Positions 21,089 to 64,000 of a stretch of DNA of 64,000 nt are shown piece after piece. Source of the DNA: a virus. The stretch spans positions 1-64,000 of the IMG/VR virus record IMGVR_UViG_3300028920_000004; one strand, written 5' to 3'. How positions within the stretch are numbered: the first letter of the stretch is position 1; each line of letters begins with the position of its first letter. A program made the position numbers and the translations under genes. The notes under the pieces are model-generated. The model was not told the DNA's origin. It saw only the letters and a program-made list of their open reading frames with translations, and did not search any database.

Positions 21089-21757
21089 ATGTCGGAAAAG
21101 AAAAAGTTTAAAATAGCCAAAAAAGCTTTAGAAGCCCTTCAGAATTTAGAAGCAGAAACAGAAATAGAGGACGAAGTAAAAAATAATCAAATAGTATTTA
21201 AGTCTGGAGAGACTACCTATAGAGTTAGAATACCTTCTTCAGAAGAAACAGAAGATATATCAAGGTTTAGAAGAAAGAAGTATATAGAATTTTTGGATGA
21301 TGATTCTTATATATTTGAAGCAGATTTAAAGGCAAAATTAAAAAAGAAAAATGTTGATATTTCAAAAATAGATGATAAAATTGCTACTTTATCTAAAAAA
21401 ATCAAAAAAAAGTTTTTGGAGTTATCAACTTGTCAAGTAGATGATACTGCTAAGGAATTAGAGAAAGAGATTTTGGATATGAAAGAACAGGTATTTATAG
21501 AAGTTAGAAAAAAATCTAATTGGTTAGCAAATTCTTTAGAAAATCAACTGATGGTAGAAACTAGTTCGTATACTATTTATTTGGTTTTAGAAAAAAAAGT
21601 TAAAGTAAAAAAAGAAGAAACGAAATGGGAAAGAGTATTTAAATCTTATGAAGATTTTAATAAGAGTAAAAATACTGATTTGATGGCTAAAGCATATTCT
21701 AAAGGTTCAAAAATTTTGTATGTGGAAAGATTAAATGTGGAGCCAGATAATGCCTAA
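21089..21757 (+). CDS. Putative tail assembly chaperone-type protein, 222 aa
   Basis: Position, charged helical composition and length resemble gpG-like chaperones that coat the tape measure protein. There are coiled segments (about 85-145) and no cysteine pairs or membrane segments. AGAGGAGGTAAGTAATG gives the start. The end overlaps the next gene by 8 nt in the +1 frame, and that gene has its own ribosome site, so a lambda-type -1 frameshift is not supported here. Confidence 0.55.
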   Translation: MSEKKKFKIAKKALEALQNLEAETEIEDEVKNNQIVFKSGETTYRVRIPSSEETEDISRFRRKKYIEFLDDDSYIFEADLKAKLKKKNVDISKIDDKIATLSKKIKKKFLELSTCQVDDTAKELEKEILDMKEQVFIEVRKKSNWLANSLENQLMVETSSYTIYLVLEKKVKVKKEETKWERVFKSYEDFNKSKNTDLMAKAYSKGSKILYVERLNVEPDNA

Positions 21758-22097
21758 TACGAAAATTCTTAGAAAATTAGCTAGGTCAAATAAATATCAA
21801 AACATTTATAATCAATGTAAAAAAATTCATGGTATAACTTTATTTAAAAACAAGAATAATTTTACGGAATTGCAACAAGAATTTTTATATTGGTTATCAG
21901 TTTATTCTATGCTGTACGATGACTTATATAATAACGAAAAATTTATCAATGAGGAAATAATAAAAAATGATATTAGGGTAGATGCTTATTTAATATATAA
22001 AGAAGAAAAAAGAAAAAACCCTAAAAAATATAAAAAACTTGAAGAATCAATCTCAACTTCTAAGTTGACAGGAATACCTACGTTAAAATTTGAATAA
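21750..22097 (+). CDS. Putative tail assembly protein, 115 aa
   Basis: The ATG at 21750 has GGAG with 7-nt spacing inside the end of the upstream gene; an earlier in-frame ATG (21735) lacks one. The product is helical, aromatic-rich (FTELQQEFLYWLSVYSMLYDDLYNNEKF) and ends 13 nt before the tape measure gene. This resembles the second half of a chaperone pair (gpT-like) made as a separate protein. Function inferred from location. Confidence 0.55.
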   Translation: MPNTKILRKLARSNKYQNIYNQCKKIHGITLFKNKNNFTELQQEFLYWLSVYSMLYDDLYNNEKFINEEIIKNDIRVDAYLIYKEEKRKNPKKYKKLEESISTSKLTGIPTLKFE

Positions 22098-22110: not shown

Positions 22111-25100
22111 ATGAATATGGGAAAACAATATTTAATAAATTTCTTGGTTACTATGACAGGGGATAAAATAACTGCTAAGAGATTTAAAATGTTTGAAGCT
22201 CAAATTAAAGGTACAGGTAAAACTATGGTGGCTACTGGAAAACAAGCTCAAACTATGGGTAATTGGTTCTCTACTATTGCTAAAAGAGCTTTATTAACAA
22301 TCCCTGCCTGGTTATTACTTAGAAGAATATTTATGGGAATTTTTGGAACCATAGACCATGTTACTACTAAGAATATGGAATTAGCAGATGCTATGGCTAG
22401 AATAAAAACTGTAGTATCAGCATCTTCTAAACACATAGAAAGAGATATGGCTATCATAGAAGAAGTTATATCTAGGGTAGCAGTTACTACTCGAAGAGAT
22501 ATAGGCGAATTAGCAGAAGTTTTCTATTATTTAAGAACTGCTAATTTAACTACTGCAGAAGCTATATCTGCTTTTGAACCTACAGTGGCTACTTTAGTAG
22601 GAACTATGGGGGATGCTAAAACAGTAACTAGAGCAGTAGCAGGTATATATAATACTATGGGAGAAAATTTAGGTAAAAATTTATCCACTTATGAGAAGTT
22701 CCAAAAAATAAATGATGTTTTGACCTACACCTATGCTTGTTATACTCCAGATACAGAGGTTTTAACTGATAAAGGTTGGAAACTGTTTACAGAATTAGAT
22801 AGAACAGAGAAAGTAGCAACTTTAAATCCAAATACTCACGAATTAGAATATCAAAAACCGATAAAATATGTGAACAAAGATTTTGAAGGTAAATTATTAC
22901 ATTTAAAAGGAAGATTTGTAGATATTAAAGTAACACCTTTGCATAAATTATATGCCAAAATAGGATATAAAACAAAGAATAAAGCCTATAAAAGAGTAAG
23001 AGCAGAAGAAGTATATAGAAAACCTAAAACTTTTTATAGGGGTTCTAATTGGAACGGAAAAAATCCTGAATATTTCGTTTTACCAGAAATAGATAATCAT
23101 CAATTAGATGGTAAATCAAAAAGAATTCCTATTAAAACTTGGTTAAAATTCCTTGCTTGGTATTTAAGTGAAGGAACTTATATGTGGAAAGAAGGGATAG
23201 ACCCTACATATAAAATTCAAATTTATCAATCTAGAAAATCTAAATATTGGGATAAATTAAAGAAAATTATGGAAGAAATGCCCTTTAACTATTCTGAGTT
23301 TAATAGAGGATTTATAATACATAGCAAACAGCTTACATCTTATTTGAAACAATTTGGAAAATCTTATGAAAAATTTATACCTGATTTTGTTAAAAAATTA
23401 TCCAAAGATTTGATAAGGCTTTTCTTAAAAACATATACTTATGGAGATGGAAGCTTTCGTAAAAAATCCTTTGTTATTATTACAAGCTCTAAAACGATGA
23501 GAAATGACCTACAAGAATTAGGATTAAAGGCTGATTATGGTACTACTTATAAAATTAGAAACGGAAAAGTTAAAAATATATGTGGAATAACCACAAAAAA
23601 GAAGACAAGAAACTGTTGGGGGATTAGTTTTTCTGACAGAACAGAAATTTTAATATCACAAGAAAAAAATGAATATTATGCTAAAAAACAAAATAGAAAA
23701 ACTACCAGTAAAGAAGAATGGATTGATTATAAAGGCAAAGTAGTTTGTGTAGAAGTTCCAAACCATACATTATTTGTTAGAAGAAAGGGAAAAGCTTTTT
23801 GGTGCGGAAATACCCAAGATGTCCAAATAGATGAATTAGCATCTTCTTATACTAAATTGGCTCCTTATTTAACAGGACTATCGGATAGTTTTACAGATAT
23901 AGTTACTATGTTAGGTTTCCTTAATACTCGAATGTTGAGAGCAGGAAGAACTGGTAGATTATTGGGTAGAACTATATTACAACTTACTAAAAATGCAGAT
24001 AAATTGAGAAAGTCTTTTGGTGTTGTTTTTGACCCTGATGCTCCTATTAGTTTATTAGATACTATTGAACAAATTAATATATCTTTAGCCACTCAAGGAG
24101 ATATTACTTCCAAACAATCAGAAATGTTGAGGGAAGTTTTTGGAACCAGAGGTTTAGTACCTATGAGGTTAATGTTAGCTTCTTATAATGATATGATTGA
24201 AGCTATAGATGAGGCAAATATAAAGGCTGAAGGATATGCCGAAAAAATGAGATTAATAAGAGAAGCTACTGCTAAAGCTCAAATAGGAAGATTTAAAAAT
24301 TTATTGGTAGTTTTATCTAAAGATTTTGCCTCCGCTACTGGTAACGCAGGAGATTTTGTTGAAATGCTTACTAAAATGAATGATAATTTAGAAATAAGTA
24401 GAGATTCAGTGAGTAGTTATGGTACTACTATAGGATGGTTATTTGATTCTATCAATAGAGGTATTGCACCTTTAACTGCTGGTTGGGCACAATTAATGGA
24501 CATTCTTACTTTTAATTTTCAAGATGTTATGCCTCATGGAGCATGGGGAATATCACAATTTATGGGGCTTAAAAATCTTGGAGATTATGCTTATGATTTA
24601 GAAGAAAAACGATTAGAAACGCAAAGAAAAAGACAAAAAGAAGAGAGCATCAGATTAAGGATGCAAACCAAAGAAGTAGAACTACAGGAACAATTAACAG
24701 AAGCTGAAAGAGATACTGAAAAGATGTTAAAGCATCAATCAAATTTGATGAAAAATTTAGGAGCTTCTTCTTTAGCGGTTAGCAAATATGAATATGAAAA
24801 ATTAAAACTGATATATCAAGAAACTGGAGCCAGAGAAGATTTAAATAATATGACAAAAGCTAGAAATAAGCTTTTGGAAGAACAAGCAAAGTCTCAACAG
24901 AAATTAGTGGAACAAGCAGAAAAATTAATTTCTAAATATGTAACAGCAAATAAAGAAAGACGAGAAGAATTAGAAACTCTTGCTAAATTGAGACAGTTAT
25001 CCCCTGCTGAAATGGGAGGGGTATGGAGTAGATTATGGGATGAAAATGAATTGTCTTTAGTATTGGATAATCTTGAATATTTTACAAGTGAACAACAAAA

Positions 25101-25677
25101 AGCTATATATGAAATAGCAAGAGCAAAATTTCCGCATTTTGCAGAGCTTATTGATGAACCTTTTGGTAAAGAAGCGATAGATGAATTTTCCTCTTATTGG
25201 AAAGAACAAGGATATGATAAAGGACAAGAATTTTGGAATAAATGGGAAGAATTAGGAATAAAAGCTATAAATAATGTTTTTGGGGAAAGTTGGGATAGAG
25301 TTTTAGAAGATTTTAAAGTATTTGTAACAGGAATATCGGAAGTTACAGCTTCTCAACAAAATTATAGAGAAATGTTAGAACAAATAAAACAAAAAGAATC
25401 TTATGCCACTGCTTTTGGCTCTCCTTTAGATAGGTATCATTCAAAACGTCAACATTGGACGTACCAAAGTAAAATGGCTGGAGTGCCTAATGTTCAAACA
25501 GGATTTGGAAAACAAATAGCTCCTATAAATGTGGCTGTAAGTGTAGATGGAGCTTCTAAGGATTTAGCCAATGCAATTTCTGAAAAAATAAAATCAGAAT
25601 TAATAGCTGATAAAAATTTTACTGAAAGTTTGGTAAAGTCAAACAGAGATTTAATAATAAGAAATTTAAAATGGTAA
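22111..25677 (+). CDS. Tape measure protein precursor interrupted by an intein, 1188 aa
   Basis: Without the intein the mature protein would be 830 residues. It has an N-terminal hydrophobic segment (residues about 55-78, ALLTIPAWLLLRRIFMGIFG), a conserved tape-measure core around the intein insertion point (VLTYTYA, then TQDVQIDELASSYTKLAPY and GRTGRLLGRTILQL) and a long C-terminal coiled coil (about 825-985). It sets tail length and usually passes into the host membrane during DNA entry. At about 0.15 nm per residue the tail would be near 125 nm (inference). GGAAGTG precedes the ATG. Confidence 0.88.
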   Translation: MNMGKQYLINFLVTMTGDKITAKRFKMFEAQIKGTGKTMVATGKQAQTMGNWFSTIAKRALLTIPAWLLLRRIFMGIFGTIDHVTTKNMELADAMARIKTVVSASSKHIERDMAIIEEVISRVAVTTRRDIGELAEVFYYLRTANLTTAEAISAFEPTVATLVGTMGDAKTVTRAVAGIYNTMGENLGKNLSTYEKFQKINDVLTYTYACYTPDTEVLTDKGWKLFTELDRTEKVATLNPNTHELEYQKPIKYVNKDFEGKLLHLKGRFVDIKVTPLHKLYAKIGYKTKNKAYKRVRAEEVYRKPKTFYRGSNWNGKNPEYFVLPEIDNHQLDGKSKRIPIKTWLKFLAWYLSEGTYMWKEGIDPTYKIQIYQSRKSKYWDKLKKIMEEMPFNYSEFNRGFIIHSKQLTSYLKQFGKSYEKFIPDFVKKLSKDLIRLFLKTYTYGDGSFRKKSFVIITSSKTMRNDLQELGLKADYGTTYKIRNGKVKNICGITTKKKTRNCWGISFSDRTEILISQEKNEYYAKKQNRKTTSKEEWIDYKGKVVCVEVPNHTLFVRRKGKAFWCGNTQDVQIDELASSYTKLAPYLTGLSDSFTDIVTMLGFLNTRMLRAGRTGRLLGRTILQLTKNADKLRKSFGVVFDPDAPISLLDTIEQINISLATQGDITSKQSEMLREVFGTRGLVPMRLMLASYNDMIEAIDEANIKAEGYAEKMRLIREATAKAQIGRFKNLLVVLSKDFASATGNAGDFVEMLTKMNDNLEISRDSVSSYGTTIGWLFDSINRGIAPLTAGWAQLMDILTFNFQDVMPHGAWGISQFMGLKNLGDYAYDLEEKRLETQRKRQKEESIRLRMQTKEVELQEQLTEAERDTEKMLKHQSNLMKNLGASSLAVSKYEYEKLKLIYQETGAREDLNNMTKARNKLLEEQAKSQQKLVEQAEKLISKYVTANKERREELETLAKLRQLSPAEMGGVWSRLWDENELSLVLDNLEYFTSEQQKAIYEIARAKFPHFAELIDEPFGKEAIDEFSSYWKEQGYDKGQEFWNKWEELGIKAINNVFGESWDRVLEDFKVFVTGISEVTASQQNYREMLEQIKQKESYATAFGSPLDRYHSKRQHWTYQSKMAGVPNVQTGFGKQIAPINVAVSVDGASKDLANAISEKIKSELIADKNFTESLVKSNRDLIIRNLKW
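22738..23811 (+). mobile_element. LAGLIDADG intein in the tape measure gene, 358 aa
   Basis: The intein begins at Cys210 of the precursor (CYTPDTEVLTDKGWK, splicing block A) and ends at Asn567 (HTLFVRRKGKAFWCGN, blocks F and G), followed by extein residue Thr568. A block B-like region with TPLHKLYA is present at about intein residue 67. Two LAGLIDADG-type motifs, FLAWYLSEGT (intein residues 138-147) and LFLKTYTYGDGS (228-239), indicate a homing endonuclease inserted between the splicing halves. The penultimate residue is Gly instead of the usual His, seen in other phage inteins with a similar WCGN end. Thr as +1 nucleophile is allowed. Confidence 0.9.
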
Positions 25678-25681
25678 AAAA

Positions 25682-26095
25682 ATGTCTATTAATAATTTTA
25701 CAGTAAAAATTAATTTTAATGATGGAACCTATGATTATGATTTACCATATGTGTTCCAAGTTGCAGACCCAAAAGAAGGGATGAAATCTGTAGATATTGA
25801 AGGTGTAGCTAAAGACGGAAGTAATATGCTTCCTGGAGGCAAAAAAAGTCAAGAGATAAGAATTAGAGGTAGAGTATTTGGTGATGATTATGATGAAGTT
25901 CAAGAAAATTTAAGTGAACTTAAAACTAAAATAACTACTGATATTGCTACTCTTACTTTAAAATATTGGAATGGTTCTACTTGGGTAAATAATTGGCAAT
26001 ATACTGTAAGAAGAATAGAACCTATAAAATTTAGAGAATCTTTAAGAAGAAGAAAACAAGAATATGAAGTTTCTTTTCTTGTGTTAGTATATTAA
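25682..26095 (+). CDS. Distal-tail-like protein, copy 1, 137 aa
   Basis: Beta-rich protein with the shared sequence elements DPKEGMKS, GSNMLPGGKKSQEIRIRGRVF and TVRRIEPIKF, repeated in the next gene; this looks like the N-terminal domain of Dit-type proteins that form the tail-tip ring, without the carbohydrate-binding C-terminal part. It starts 4 nt after the tape measure stop with a weak ribosome site (coupled). Together with the next gene it probably closes the tail tube. Confidence 0.6.
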   Translation: MSINNFTVKINFNDGTYDYDLPYVFQVADPKEGMKSVDIEGVAKDGSNMLPGGKKSQEIRIRGRVFGDDYDEVQENLSELKTKITTDIATLTLKYWNGSTWVNNWQYTVRRIEPIKFRESLRRRKQEYEVSFLVLVY

Positions 26096-26104
26096 GGAGA
26101 AAAA

Positions 26105-26509
26105 ATGTCTGGAATTAGAACTAGATTAATATTTGATGATGGAAGCTCCTATACTTTTCCTTATGTTTTTCATATAGATGACCCAAAAGAAGGGATGAAA
26201 TCTAGAATTATAGATGGAAATAGGGGAGATGGAAGTATAGTAATTCCAGGAAATAAAGAAAGTCAGGATATAACAATAGAAGGTAGATTTGTAGAAGATG
26301 GATATGAAAATATAACTTCTCAAATAACTTCTATGAGAAATTCTATATCTACTAATCAGGCTTCCTTAAAATTGCAACATTATAATGGAAGTTCTTGGGA
26401 AACGGATTGGGAATATACTGTTCGTAGAAAAGAAGAGATAGAATTTCCAGAAAGTTTAAGAACTGCGGAACAAAAATATAAAGTATTATTTAAAGTATTA
26501 AGTTATTAA
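26105..26509 (+). CDS. Distal-tail-like protein, copy 2, 134 aa
   Basis: Clear tandem paralogue of the preceding gene: both contain DPKEGMKS, a GSxxxPGxKxSQxIxIxGR block, a WxxxWxYTVRR strand and a near-identical length. The divergence points to an old duplication. AAGGAG precedes the ATG. Probably a second tail-tip ring or a heteromeric ring partner. Confidence 0.6.
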   Translation: MSGIRTRLIFDDGSSYTFPYVFHIDDPKEGMKSRIIDGNRGDGSIVIPGNKESQDITIEGRFVEDGYENITSQITSMRNSISTNQASLKLQHYNGSSWETDWEYTVRRKEEIEFPESLRTAEQKYKVLFKVLSY

Positions 26510-27229: not shown

Positions 27230-27835
27230 ATGAAGAAAGATAATATTCAACCTATTTTTATTATAATATTTGAAGATAATACTAAGTTTGAAGGTGGAAC
27301 TTCTTATTATGAAACTAAATGGAATCAAATTCCAGATAAGAAGATAAGAAATATATTTTATAGATTACCTTCTGGAGATTCTTTATGTTTACCAGTCGGA
27401 GATAAATATTATCACAAAGTAGAAGCTACTCAAGATATTTATGGAGGTAAAAATAAAGGTAAAGTTATATTGAGATATGCTTATATTATGGTAAAAAGAG
27501 GAGAGAAAGTTATACAATATAAGATTCAATTATTTAACTCCATGTATAGAGAATGTCATTTGATTTTAAATTATAAAGGAAAAAAAATAAAAAAAATAAC
27601 TCCTAAAAATGAAGTATATATAGTAAAAGGTTCAGAAATTAAAGCTAAAAACCTTAGAAAAGGTAATACCATATCTAAATATAATTATAAAGACAAAAAA
27701 ATGGAAATTATGAATGTAATTGAAAATAAAATAATACCTAAGCTTGGAGATAAAAAAATAGGAAATATTTCTATTAAAATACTACCTATTAATAGTTCTG
27801 AAATAAAATCTCTCAACAAGGAGAATTGGAAATAA
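27230..27835 (+). CDS. Hypothetical tail-region protein, 201 aa
   Basis: A basic alpha/beta protein beginning with a conserved-looking IIFEDNTKFEGGTSYYETKWNQIPDKKIRNIFYRLPSGDSL, followed by strands and a Lys-rich C-terminal half. Its stop overlaps the next start (TAATG). AGGAG precedes the ATG. I recall similar starts in hypothetical phage proteins, but no function is known to me. Confidence 0.5.
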   Translation: MKKDNIQPIFIIIFEDNTKFEGGTSYYETKWNQIPDKKIRNIFYRLPSGDSLCLPVGDKYYHKVEATQDIYGGKNKGKVILRYAYIMVKRGEKVIQYKIQLFNSMYRECHLILNYKGKKIKKITPKNEVYIVKGSEIKAKNLRKGNTISKYNYKDKKMEIMNVIENKIIPKLGDKKIGNISIKILPINSSEIKSLNKENWK

Positions 27836-47707: not shown

Positions 47708-49129
47708 CTAATCTAATTCTATAAGTTGTATATCTTCAGGAATATTATCAAATCTATGTAAAATGAGTATTAATTGAAATGGAAACTCATTAAAAATTTT
47801 AAGAATATAATCCAAATTAGATTTATCTAAACTACCTAAACCTTCATCAGCAATAATTAATCCATCTTCTCCTCGTTCCATCAATAACGCTAATTTGAAA
47901 GCTATTTGTAATATTAATTTTTCCCCTGTAGACAAATCTTTATAATTAAATTGAACTTCTTCTTTGGTTAATAATACATTAAATTTTCCTTTTTCATTCA
48001 CTTCAAAAGATACTTTAAAATTTATTTTATTTAGAATTTTATTTATAATAGGTTCCAATACTTTAATACTTTCTGTTAAATAATAAGAAGAAAAATTATC
48101 GAGTTCTTTAATTGCCCTACTTACTATTTCTACATCTTTAGTTGTATATTTATATTTTTTTTCATTAGGATTTCTTTCTAGTTTAGATAATAATCTCTCT
48201 AAATTATCTTCTTTGGTTTCCAATTTTTTTACTTTCTTTTCATATTGGACAATAATATCTAACATTGTTTCATTGTCTTTTACTTTACTTTCTAATCTTG
48301 GTACTATTTCTTTTATTTTCTTTTCAAATTTTTGGATAATATCAGTTTTAAGTTCCTCTGTTATTTCTTGTTCGCATACATAACAAACATCTAAAGATTC
48401 TAATTTATCTATTCTAGATTCAAAATATTCAATGCTATTTTCTAACTTGCCTATTTTTTTTGTATTCTTATTAGATTTATTTTCTAAATTCTCTACTTTA
48501 TCTTTTAAAGTTTCTATTTTATATTGTATTTTATCATAAGCAGTTTTTAATATACTTTTTCTTTTTTCTGAATAATAATGTATATTTTTAACCAAATTAT
48601 CTTTATTAAAGATTTCCCTTTGTCTTTTAATTTCCCTAAGATTATCTCTAATTTTCTTTATTCTTTTTTCATTAAGAGAAAATATAATATTTTTTAAAGC
48701 GGTTTGTCCTTGTTCCAAAAAATTAGATTCTTTACTATAAGCATCTATAACCCTAAATTGTTGAAATTGTTCTCTATCTCCGAGCAAATCATCTATAAAA
48801 TATTGAGCTTCTCTATTAGTAATAAATTTTAATAACTCTTCATTCTTATATATTTCTAATTTAGTAGGGTATTTTCTAATAATTTTATATATATCTTTAT
48901 CTTTCCTTATAGTATGTTCTGTCATACAAGATTTGGCTATATTTCTTGTAGGAAGGTCTCCTAATGAATTTGCCATAGAATATCCCCAAATCCCAAACAA
49001 AACTGATGATAGAGCAAGTGTGCTCTTACCAGACCCATTAGAACCTGTTATTAAGACGTTTTTTTCCCATTTTTGGGCTTTTTTCTCAAATTTCTTGAAA
49101 TTTTCTAAATAAGTATGTTTTAAATACAT
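47708..49129 (-). CDS. Rad50/SbcC-type recombination subunit (T4 gp46-like), 473 aa
   Basis: The Walker A GSNGSGKST is at residues 29-37; a long coiled-coil middle contains the zinc hook CYVCEQ (about residue 254), followed by the ABC signature DLSTGEKLILQIAFKLALL and Walker B DGLIIADEGLGSLD near the C terminus. Size is close to phage gp46 and much smaller than bacterial SbcC. With the Mre11-like gene at 50989 it would form a nuclease complex for recombination-dependent replication. AGGATAAAATATG is the ribosome site. Confidence 0.9.
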   Translation of the reverse strand: MYLKHTYLENFKKFEKKAQKWEKNVLITGSNGSGKSTLALSSVLFGIWGYSMANSLGDLPTRNIAKSCMTEHTIRKDKDIYKIIRKYPTKLEIYKNEELLKFITNREAQYFIDDLLGDREQFQQFRVIDAYSKESNFLEQGQTALKNIIFSLNEKRIKKIRDNLREIKRQREIFNKDNLVKNIHYYSEKRKSILKTAYDKIQYKIETLKDKVENLENKSNKNTKKIGKLENSIEYFESRIDKLESLDVCYVCEQEITEELKTDIIQKFEKKIKEIVPRLESKVKDNETMLDIIVQYEKKVKKLETKEDNLERLLSKLERNPNEKKYKYTTKDVEIVSRAIKELDNFSSYYLTESIKVLEPIINKILNKINFKVSFEVNEKGKFNVLLTKEEVQFNYKDLSTGEKLILQIAFKLALLMERGEDGLIIADEGLGSLDKSNLDYILKIFNEFPFQLILILHRFDNIPEDIQLIELD

Positions 49130-63686: not shown

Positions 63687-63985
63687 TTCTTTTTATTTCC
63701 TTTTTTAGGTTTTTCATCTTCATCCAATTCATCAACTCGTACAAACTCTTTGGTTTCCCATATATATTTACAAGGAATTTCAAAATTTTTAATTCTTCTT
63801 TTAGCATCTCTAATTTTATCTATCACAAATTTCCCATATTCTCCTTTACTATCTTCTTCATAAATATATCTTACAGCAAAAGAAGGAAATTGAGTTATCA
63901 AATCTTTAGCTAACCATTGACCATTATCTCTTAATTGTACAAAGACTATTAATATGGATTGTTTATCTCTTGCTTTATCATTCAA
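63683..63985 (-). CDS. Hypothetical protein, 100 aa
   Basis: The start ATG (63985) is near the window edge; upstream context is missing. The product is a soluble alpha/beta chain (QSILIVFVQLRDNGQWLAKDLITQFPSFAVRYIYEED) with a Lys-rich tail. Coupled to the resolvase gene (ATGA). No family recognised. Confidence 0.5.
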   Translation of the reverse strand: MNDKARDKQSILIVFVQLRDNGQWLAKDLITQFPSFAVRYIYEEDSKGEYGKFVIDKIRDAKRRIKNFEIPCKYIWETKEFVRVDELDEDEKPKKGNKKK

Positions 63986-64000
63986 ATGTTTAAGAATTTT

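Follow-up and report, generated by a model that had tools for sequence, protein, structure and literature searches.

A probable mobile intein within a tape measure gene from an uncultured tailed phage

The window, that is the whole stretch of DNA analysed here, comprises 64,000 nucleotides (positions 1 to 64,000 of the IMG/VR virus record IMGVR_UViG_3300028920_000004). One open reading frame (ORF) on its plus strand combines a tape measure gene and an intein, with the following features.

22111..25677, plus strand: tape measure gene including the intein, precursor of 1188 aa (PHROG and Pfam tape measure matches)
22111..22737, plus strand: N-extein, 209 aa (phrog_991, 1.4e-8; PhageMin_Tail positions 10-85)
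22738..23811, plus strand: intein, 358 aa, Hint splicing domain enclosing a LAGLIDADG endonuclease domain (end-to-end phage intein homology; AF2 model)
22738..22740, plus strand: Cys1, nucleophile of the N-terminal splice step, in block A CYTPDTEVLT (Cys in 101/101 aligned inteins)
22933..22944, plus strand: block B, T66-P-L-H69 (T66 in 95/101, H69 in 100/101)
23170..23172, plus strand: E145, first LAGLIDADG catalytic acid (E or D in 96/101)
23446..23448, plus strand: D237, second LAGLIDADG catalytic acid (D in 97/101)
23746..23748, plus strand: Cys337 of block F (Cys in 86/101, Asp in 13/101)
23806..23811, plus strand: Gly357-Asn358 of block G, C-terminal splice step (Asn 101/101, Gly 98/101)
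23812..25677, plus strand: C-extein, 621 aa, first residue Thr, the +1 nucleophile (phrog_9696 tape measure)

Tape measure proteins are the rulers that set phage tail length. Searched whole, the 1188-residue ORF scored 24.9 bits against Pfam PhageMin_Tail, split over two stretches. With the flanks joined without the intein, which gives 830 residues, exactly the count proposed earlier for the spliced product, the score rose to 47.0 bits, now continuous over profile positions 11-201 and past the curated threshold of 33.2 bits. Similarly, phrog_991 went from 55.5 bits on the whole ORF to 66.9 bits on the joined flanks, and phrog_28 appeared with the latter at 54.2 bits. Matches to the flanks in deposited phages were all weak, and every one was a tape measure gene. 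Residues 30-355 of the joined flanks aligned through the junction with intein-free Paenibacillus tape measure proteins, again weakly (E 6-7). The gene also lies in a tail operon whose gene order is common to the window and two related loci, L141 and L142. By profile matches and gene order alike, the host gene at 22111-25677 is thus recognised as a tape measure gene, in agreement with the sequence-only reading.

Scanning IMG/VR with the joined flanks turned up an empty site. In L141 (IMGVR_UViG_3300033148_004210), a phage whose PolB is 50% identical to that of the window phage, the tape measure gene reads LTYTYA/TQDVE without interruption and is without exactly the segment 22738-23811. No relative of the window intein was found in its 101,595-base record. 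The N-extein is 43-45% identical to the matching parts of intein-free L141 and of L142, which belongs to the L019 phage described below, and the C-extein matches both from its very first residue. The intein therefore corresponds to residues 210-567 of the ORF, beginning with Cys and ending with Gly-Asn, followed by Thr (YTYA/C...CGN/TQDV), and the predicted junction peptide of the spliced protein spans YTYATQDVQIDELASSYTK. The edges, the 358-residue length and the junction had been called to the base by the sequence-only reading, and the comparison with an intein-free homologue that it proposed comes out exactly at those edges. Its placement of the insertion in a conserved core also stands: residues 196-270 are about 80% identical between the window and L019, the most conserved block of the protein, versus mostly 20-57% in the rest of the N-terminal half. 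Inteins usually settle at conserved sites (PMC9957025).

Residues 1 to 358 align end to end with inteins of other phages, hosted by ThyX, terminase, ribonucleotide reductase, methyltransferase, nucleotidyltransferase and phosphoesterase genes. Among the full-length matches, the Corynebacterium phage P1201 ThyX and the HanShotFirst phosphoesterase are annotated as intein-bearing. IMG/VR scans with the intein or the exteins as single-protein queries gave no matches, and alignment queries gave matches. By this homology the insert is not a chance likeness. Two LAGLIDADG motifs, FLAWYLSEGT and FLKTYTYGDGS, hold the acids E145 and D237, both retained in the L019 intein. The Pfam LAGLIDADG_3 match on the ORF fell below the Pfam cut-off.

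An AlphaFold (AF2) model of the intein, built from an alignment of 44 sequences, reached a pLDDT of 93.5 and shows a predicted Hint fold. Its best PDB matches were the TliVMA and PhoVMA inteins (Foldseek E 7e-17 for TliVMA), PI-PkoII, PI-PfuI and PI-SceI, and the modelled endonuclease matched the folds of I-DmoI and PI-SceI. Among the archaeal and yeast VMA and polymerase inteins, the classical members outside phages, TliVMA, PhoVMA, PI-PkoII, PI-PfuI and PI-SceI share fold and domain order with the window intein, and several of them match by sequence profile too, but identities are 10-16% and the host genes differ. Judged by its sequence, the endonuclease is of the two-motif LAGLIDADG homing type with catalytic acids intact. 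Intein homology, the empty site, the motifs and the predicted fold agree on the LAGLIDADG intein that had been claimed.

The residue set of a class 1 intein is present (C1, T66/H69, N358, T+1), except that the penultimate His of this class is replaced by Gly357. A penultimate His is common in inteins, not obligatory; at the block F position, where the window intein has Cys337, Asp is usual in canonical inteins. Since Cys337 and the +1 Thr recall class 3 inteins, that class was considered; it was discarded on two grounds: an invariant Cys1 is present, and the WCT set lacks its Trp, none following the block B His (VTPLHKLYA). The last two residues are Gly-Asn in 97 of 100 non-redundant relatives and Ser-Asn in the other three. 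Several inteins devoid of a penultimate His still splice (review, PMC7664689). The RDF intein of mycobacteriophage Bethlehem, with a native penultimate Gly, splices completely, and changing that Gly to His slows the reaction so far that about half splicing takes more than 5 hours (PMC5050341). Gly357 is therefore no bar to intein membership, and Gly, being the family norm, predicts ordinary, prompt splicing rather than delay. The sequence-only reading had treated it as a departure, a view that these data do not uphold. The HanShotFirst phosphoesterase intein, a full-length homologue of the window intein, presumably belongs with the RDF intein, since RDF is described as a phosphoesterase of the same phage cluster (PMC5050341).

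An intein 67-68% identical (approximately) lies at the same residue of the tape measure gene in a sister phage, L019 (IMGVR_UViG_3300022699_000224). The tape measure flanks of the two phages share 45% identity on the N side and 36% on the C side, and identities across the neighbouring tail genes compared run from 31 to 56%, all below the intein, as expected of a mobile or constrained element. Between window and L019, dN was 0.24 for the whole intein versus 0.53-0.70 for the exteins, with dS at 1.0-1.2 for both. The endonuclease part gave dN 0.26 and dS 1.06, the N-extein dN 0.53 and dS 1.02. By this estimate, a rough one with dS near saturation, the endonuclease part appears to be under purifying selection. 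The intein would be either more constrained at the protein level than its host protein or more recently exchanged, and dS is too near saturation to choose between the two.

In this sister phage (record G001), L145:1501-2535 holds a second intein, about 38-40% identical to that of the window. The ORF around it has a Walker A-like GSKNAHGKTH stretch and is likely a primase/helicase; a homologue of this gene lies at the window end (63713-64000, minus strand).

Taken together, we favour, with a probability of about 0.93, a selfish mobile intein of class 1 type that sits at a conserved and essential site of the tape measure protein in this uncultured tailed phage and would splice itself out promptly. 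Protein splicing would follow translation and take the class 1 path: an acyl shift at Cys1, transfer to Thr+1, and cyclisation of Asn358. This would free the 358-residue intein and leave an uninterrupted tape measure protein of 830 residues. The freed LAGLIDADG endonuclease would then cut intein-free tape measure genes during co-infection, and repair of the cut gene would copy the intein in. Such cutting of the inteinless allele is known for two phage terminase inteins (PMC5050341). The insert and its edges, the empty site in L141, the same insertion in L019 and the catalytic residues are seen in the sequences, and the fold in the model; from residues and fold we infer class 1 splicing, probably fast, and homing by a presumably active LAGLIDADG endonuclease. 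For the phage, the intein is most likely nearly neutral and would leave the tail ruler unchanged.

Three other explanations were weighed. The endonuclease could be dead and the intein vertically inherited, persisting because precise loss is rare. This is compatible with the single intein copy in record G000, which contains no second intein, but both LAGLIDADG acids are intact in the window and L019 alleles and the endonuclease region appears to be under purifying selection, so that we regard it as unlikely. A smaller chance is left to the idea that the intein is genuine and its splicing rate acts as a timer, an unspliced tape measure protein being unable to nucleate a tail. With an insertion in the conserved core, the unspliced protein is probably inactive, and conditional splicing has been shown for other inteins (discussed in PMC7156551). 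However, the related L141 phage, with the same tail gene order, lives without the intein, the penultimate Gly is the family norm and, in the phage intein that was tested, accompanies rapid and full splicing, and no regulatory feature was seen in the sequence. The earlier suggestion that splicing speed times tail assembly finds no sign of regulated splicing behind it and no support except that the site is essential, and conditional splicing of the precursor as a post-translational checkpoint of tail assembly in this phage lineage is very improbable. Least probable is that the insert is a normal domain which the tape measure protein retains. In favour of this, no stop interrupts the frame, but the segment is missing at exactly the same edges in L141, is homologous to inteins in unrelated genes, and has a predicted Hint plus LAGLIDADG fold with its catalytic residues kept.

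A mobile intein, the reading we prefer, would be a known kind of element. The closest described relatives are the class 1 inteins of mycobacteriophages, hosted by RDF, ThyX, nucleotidyltransferase, methyltransferase, terminase and portal genes (PMC5050341). The window intein has full-length homology to those of the RDF-type phosphoesterase, nucleotidyltransferase and methylase, and shares with them Cys1, the block B region and the terminal G-N; unlike them it sits in a tape measure gene, and identity is only about 22-25%. The best deposited-phage match among the matches listed was an intein in an unannotated ORF of Prevotella phage Lak-A1 (32% over residues 1-358), but the match is confined to the intein, the Lak-A1 flanks bearing no resemblance to the tape measure flanks. 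In ICP1, the tape measure gene is likewise home to a homing endonuclease element, but there it consists of RNA-level introns with an HNH endonuclease (PMC10448857), in contrast to the protein splicing proposed here.

A second tape measure insertion was found in a different phage, L022 (IMGVR_UViG_3300032053_000645), whose intein is related to that of the window (about 35% identical) and whose host is another tape measure gene (phrog_1533, 2e-77). Its insertion point, GIKG/SMAG, is some 48 residues downstream in the alignment, and each of the two genes is uninterrupted at the other's site. A quick tree joined the window and L022 inteins (support 86), whereas a careful tree did not, so that independent insertion is the safer reading of these sequences. 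About 165 intein loci were inspected and tape measure exteins were present in L019 and L022 only, and a screen of the other intein-bearing ORFs for tape measure matches found none. Another virion host gene was seen at L089:4001-5092, where an ORF matching portal and head proteins contains a relative of the window intein.

Most phage genes published as intein hosts serve DNA metabolism or packaging; earlier examples among virion genes are portal (PMC5050341) and minor head (PMC7468147). Introns are reported in a Twort tail gene (as given in PMC5526547). We found no intein in a tape measure gene in the open-access papers searched, nor any tape measure gene among the annotated phage intein matches listed. 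The tape measure gene thus seems unreported as an intein host, and a virion ruler protein joins the list. Given two tape measure intein sites (window and L019; L022) and the known homing introns, homing elements seem to settle in tape measure genes repeatedly. For such genes, tail lengths predicted from the ORF and automatic annotation will be wrong unless the intein is removed.

Several neighbouring genes of the window deserve mention. Just 5' of the tape measure gene, 21089-21757 and 21735-22097 overlap in different frames, as in L141; they probably encode the two tail assembly chaperones, with frameshifting as a possible link between them. Just 3' of it, the adjacent 25682-26095 and 26105-26509 both match one L141/L142 gene and, by this match, are a tandem duplication in the window phage. 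In 27230-27835, the first 125 residues alone match L141, and the last 75 (ITPKNEVYIVKGSEIKAKNLRKGN...) have a slight Hint-type look by eye, with no family match. Farther away, in the phage replication region, 47708-49129 (minus strand) encodes an SMC-like protein with a Rad50 zinc hook motif.
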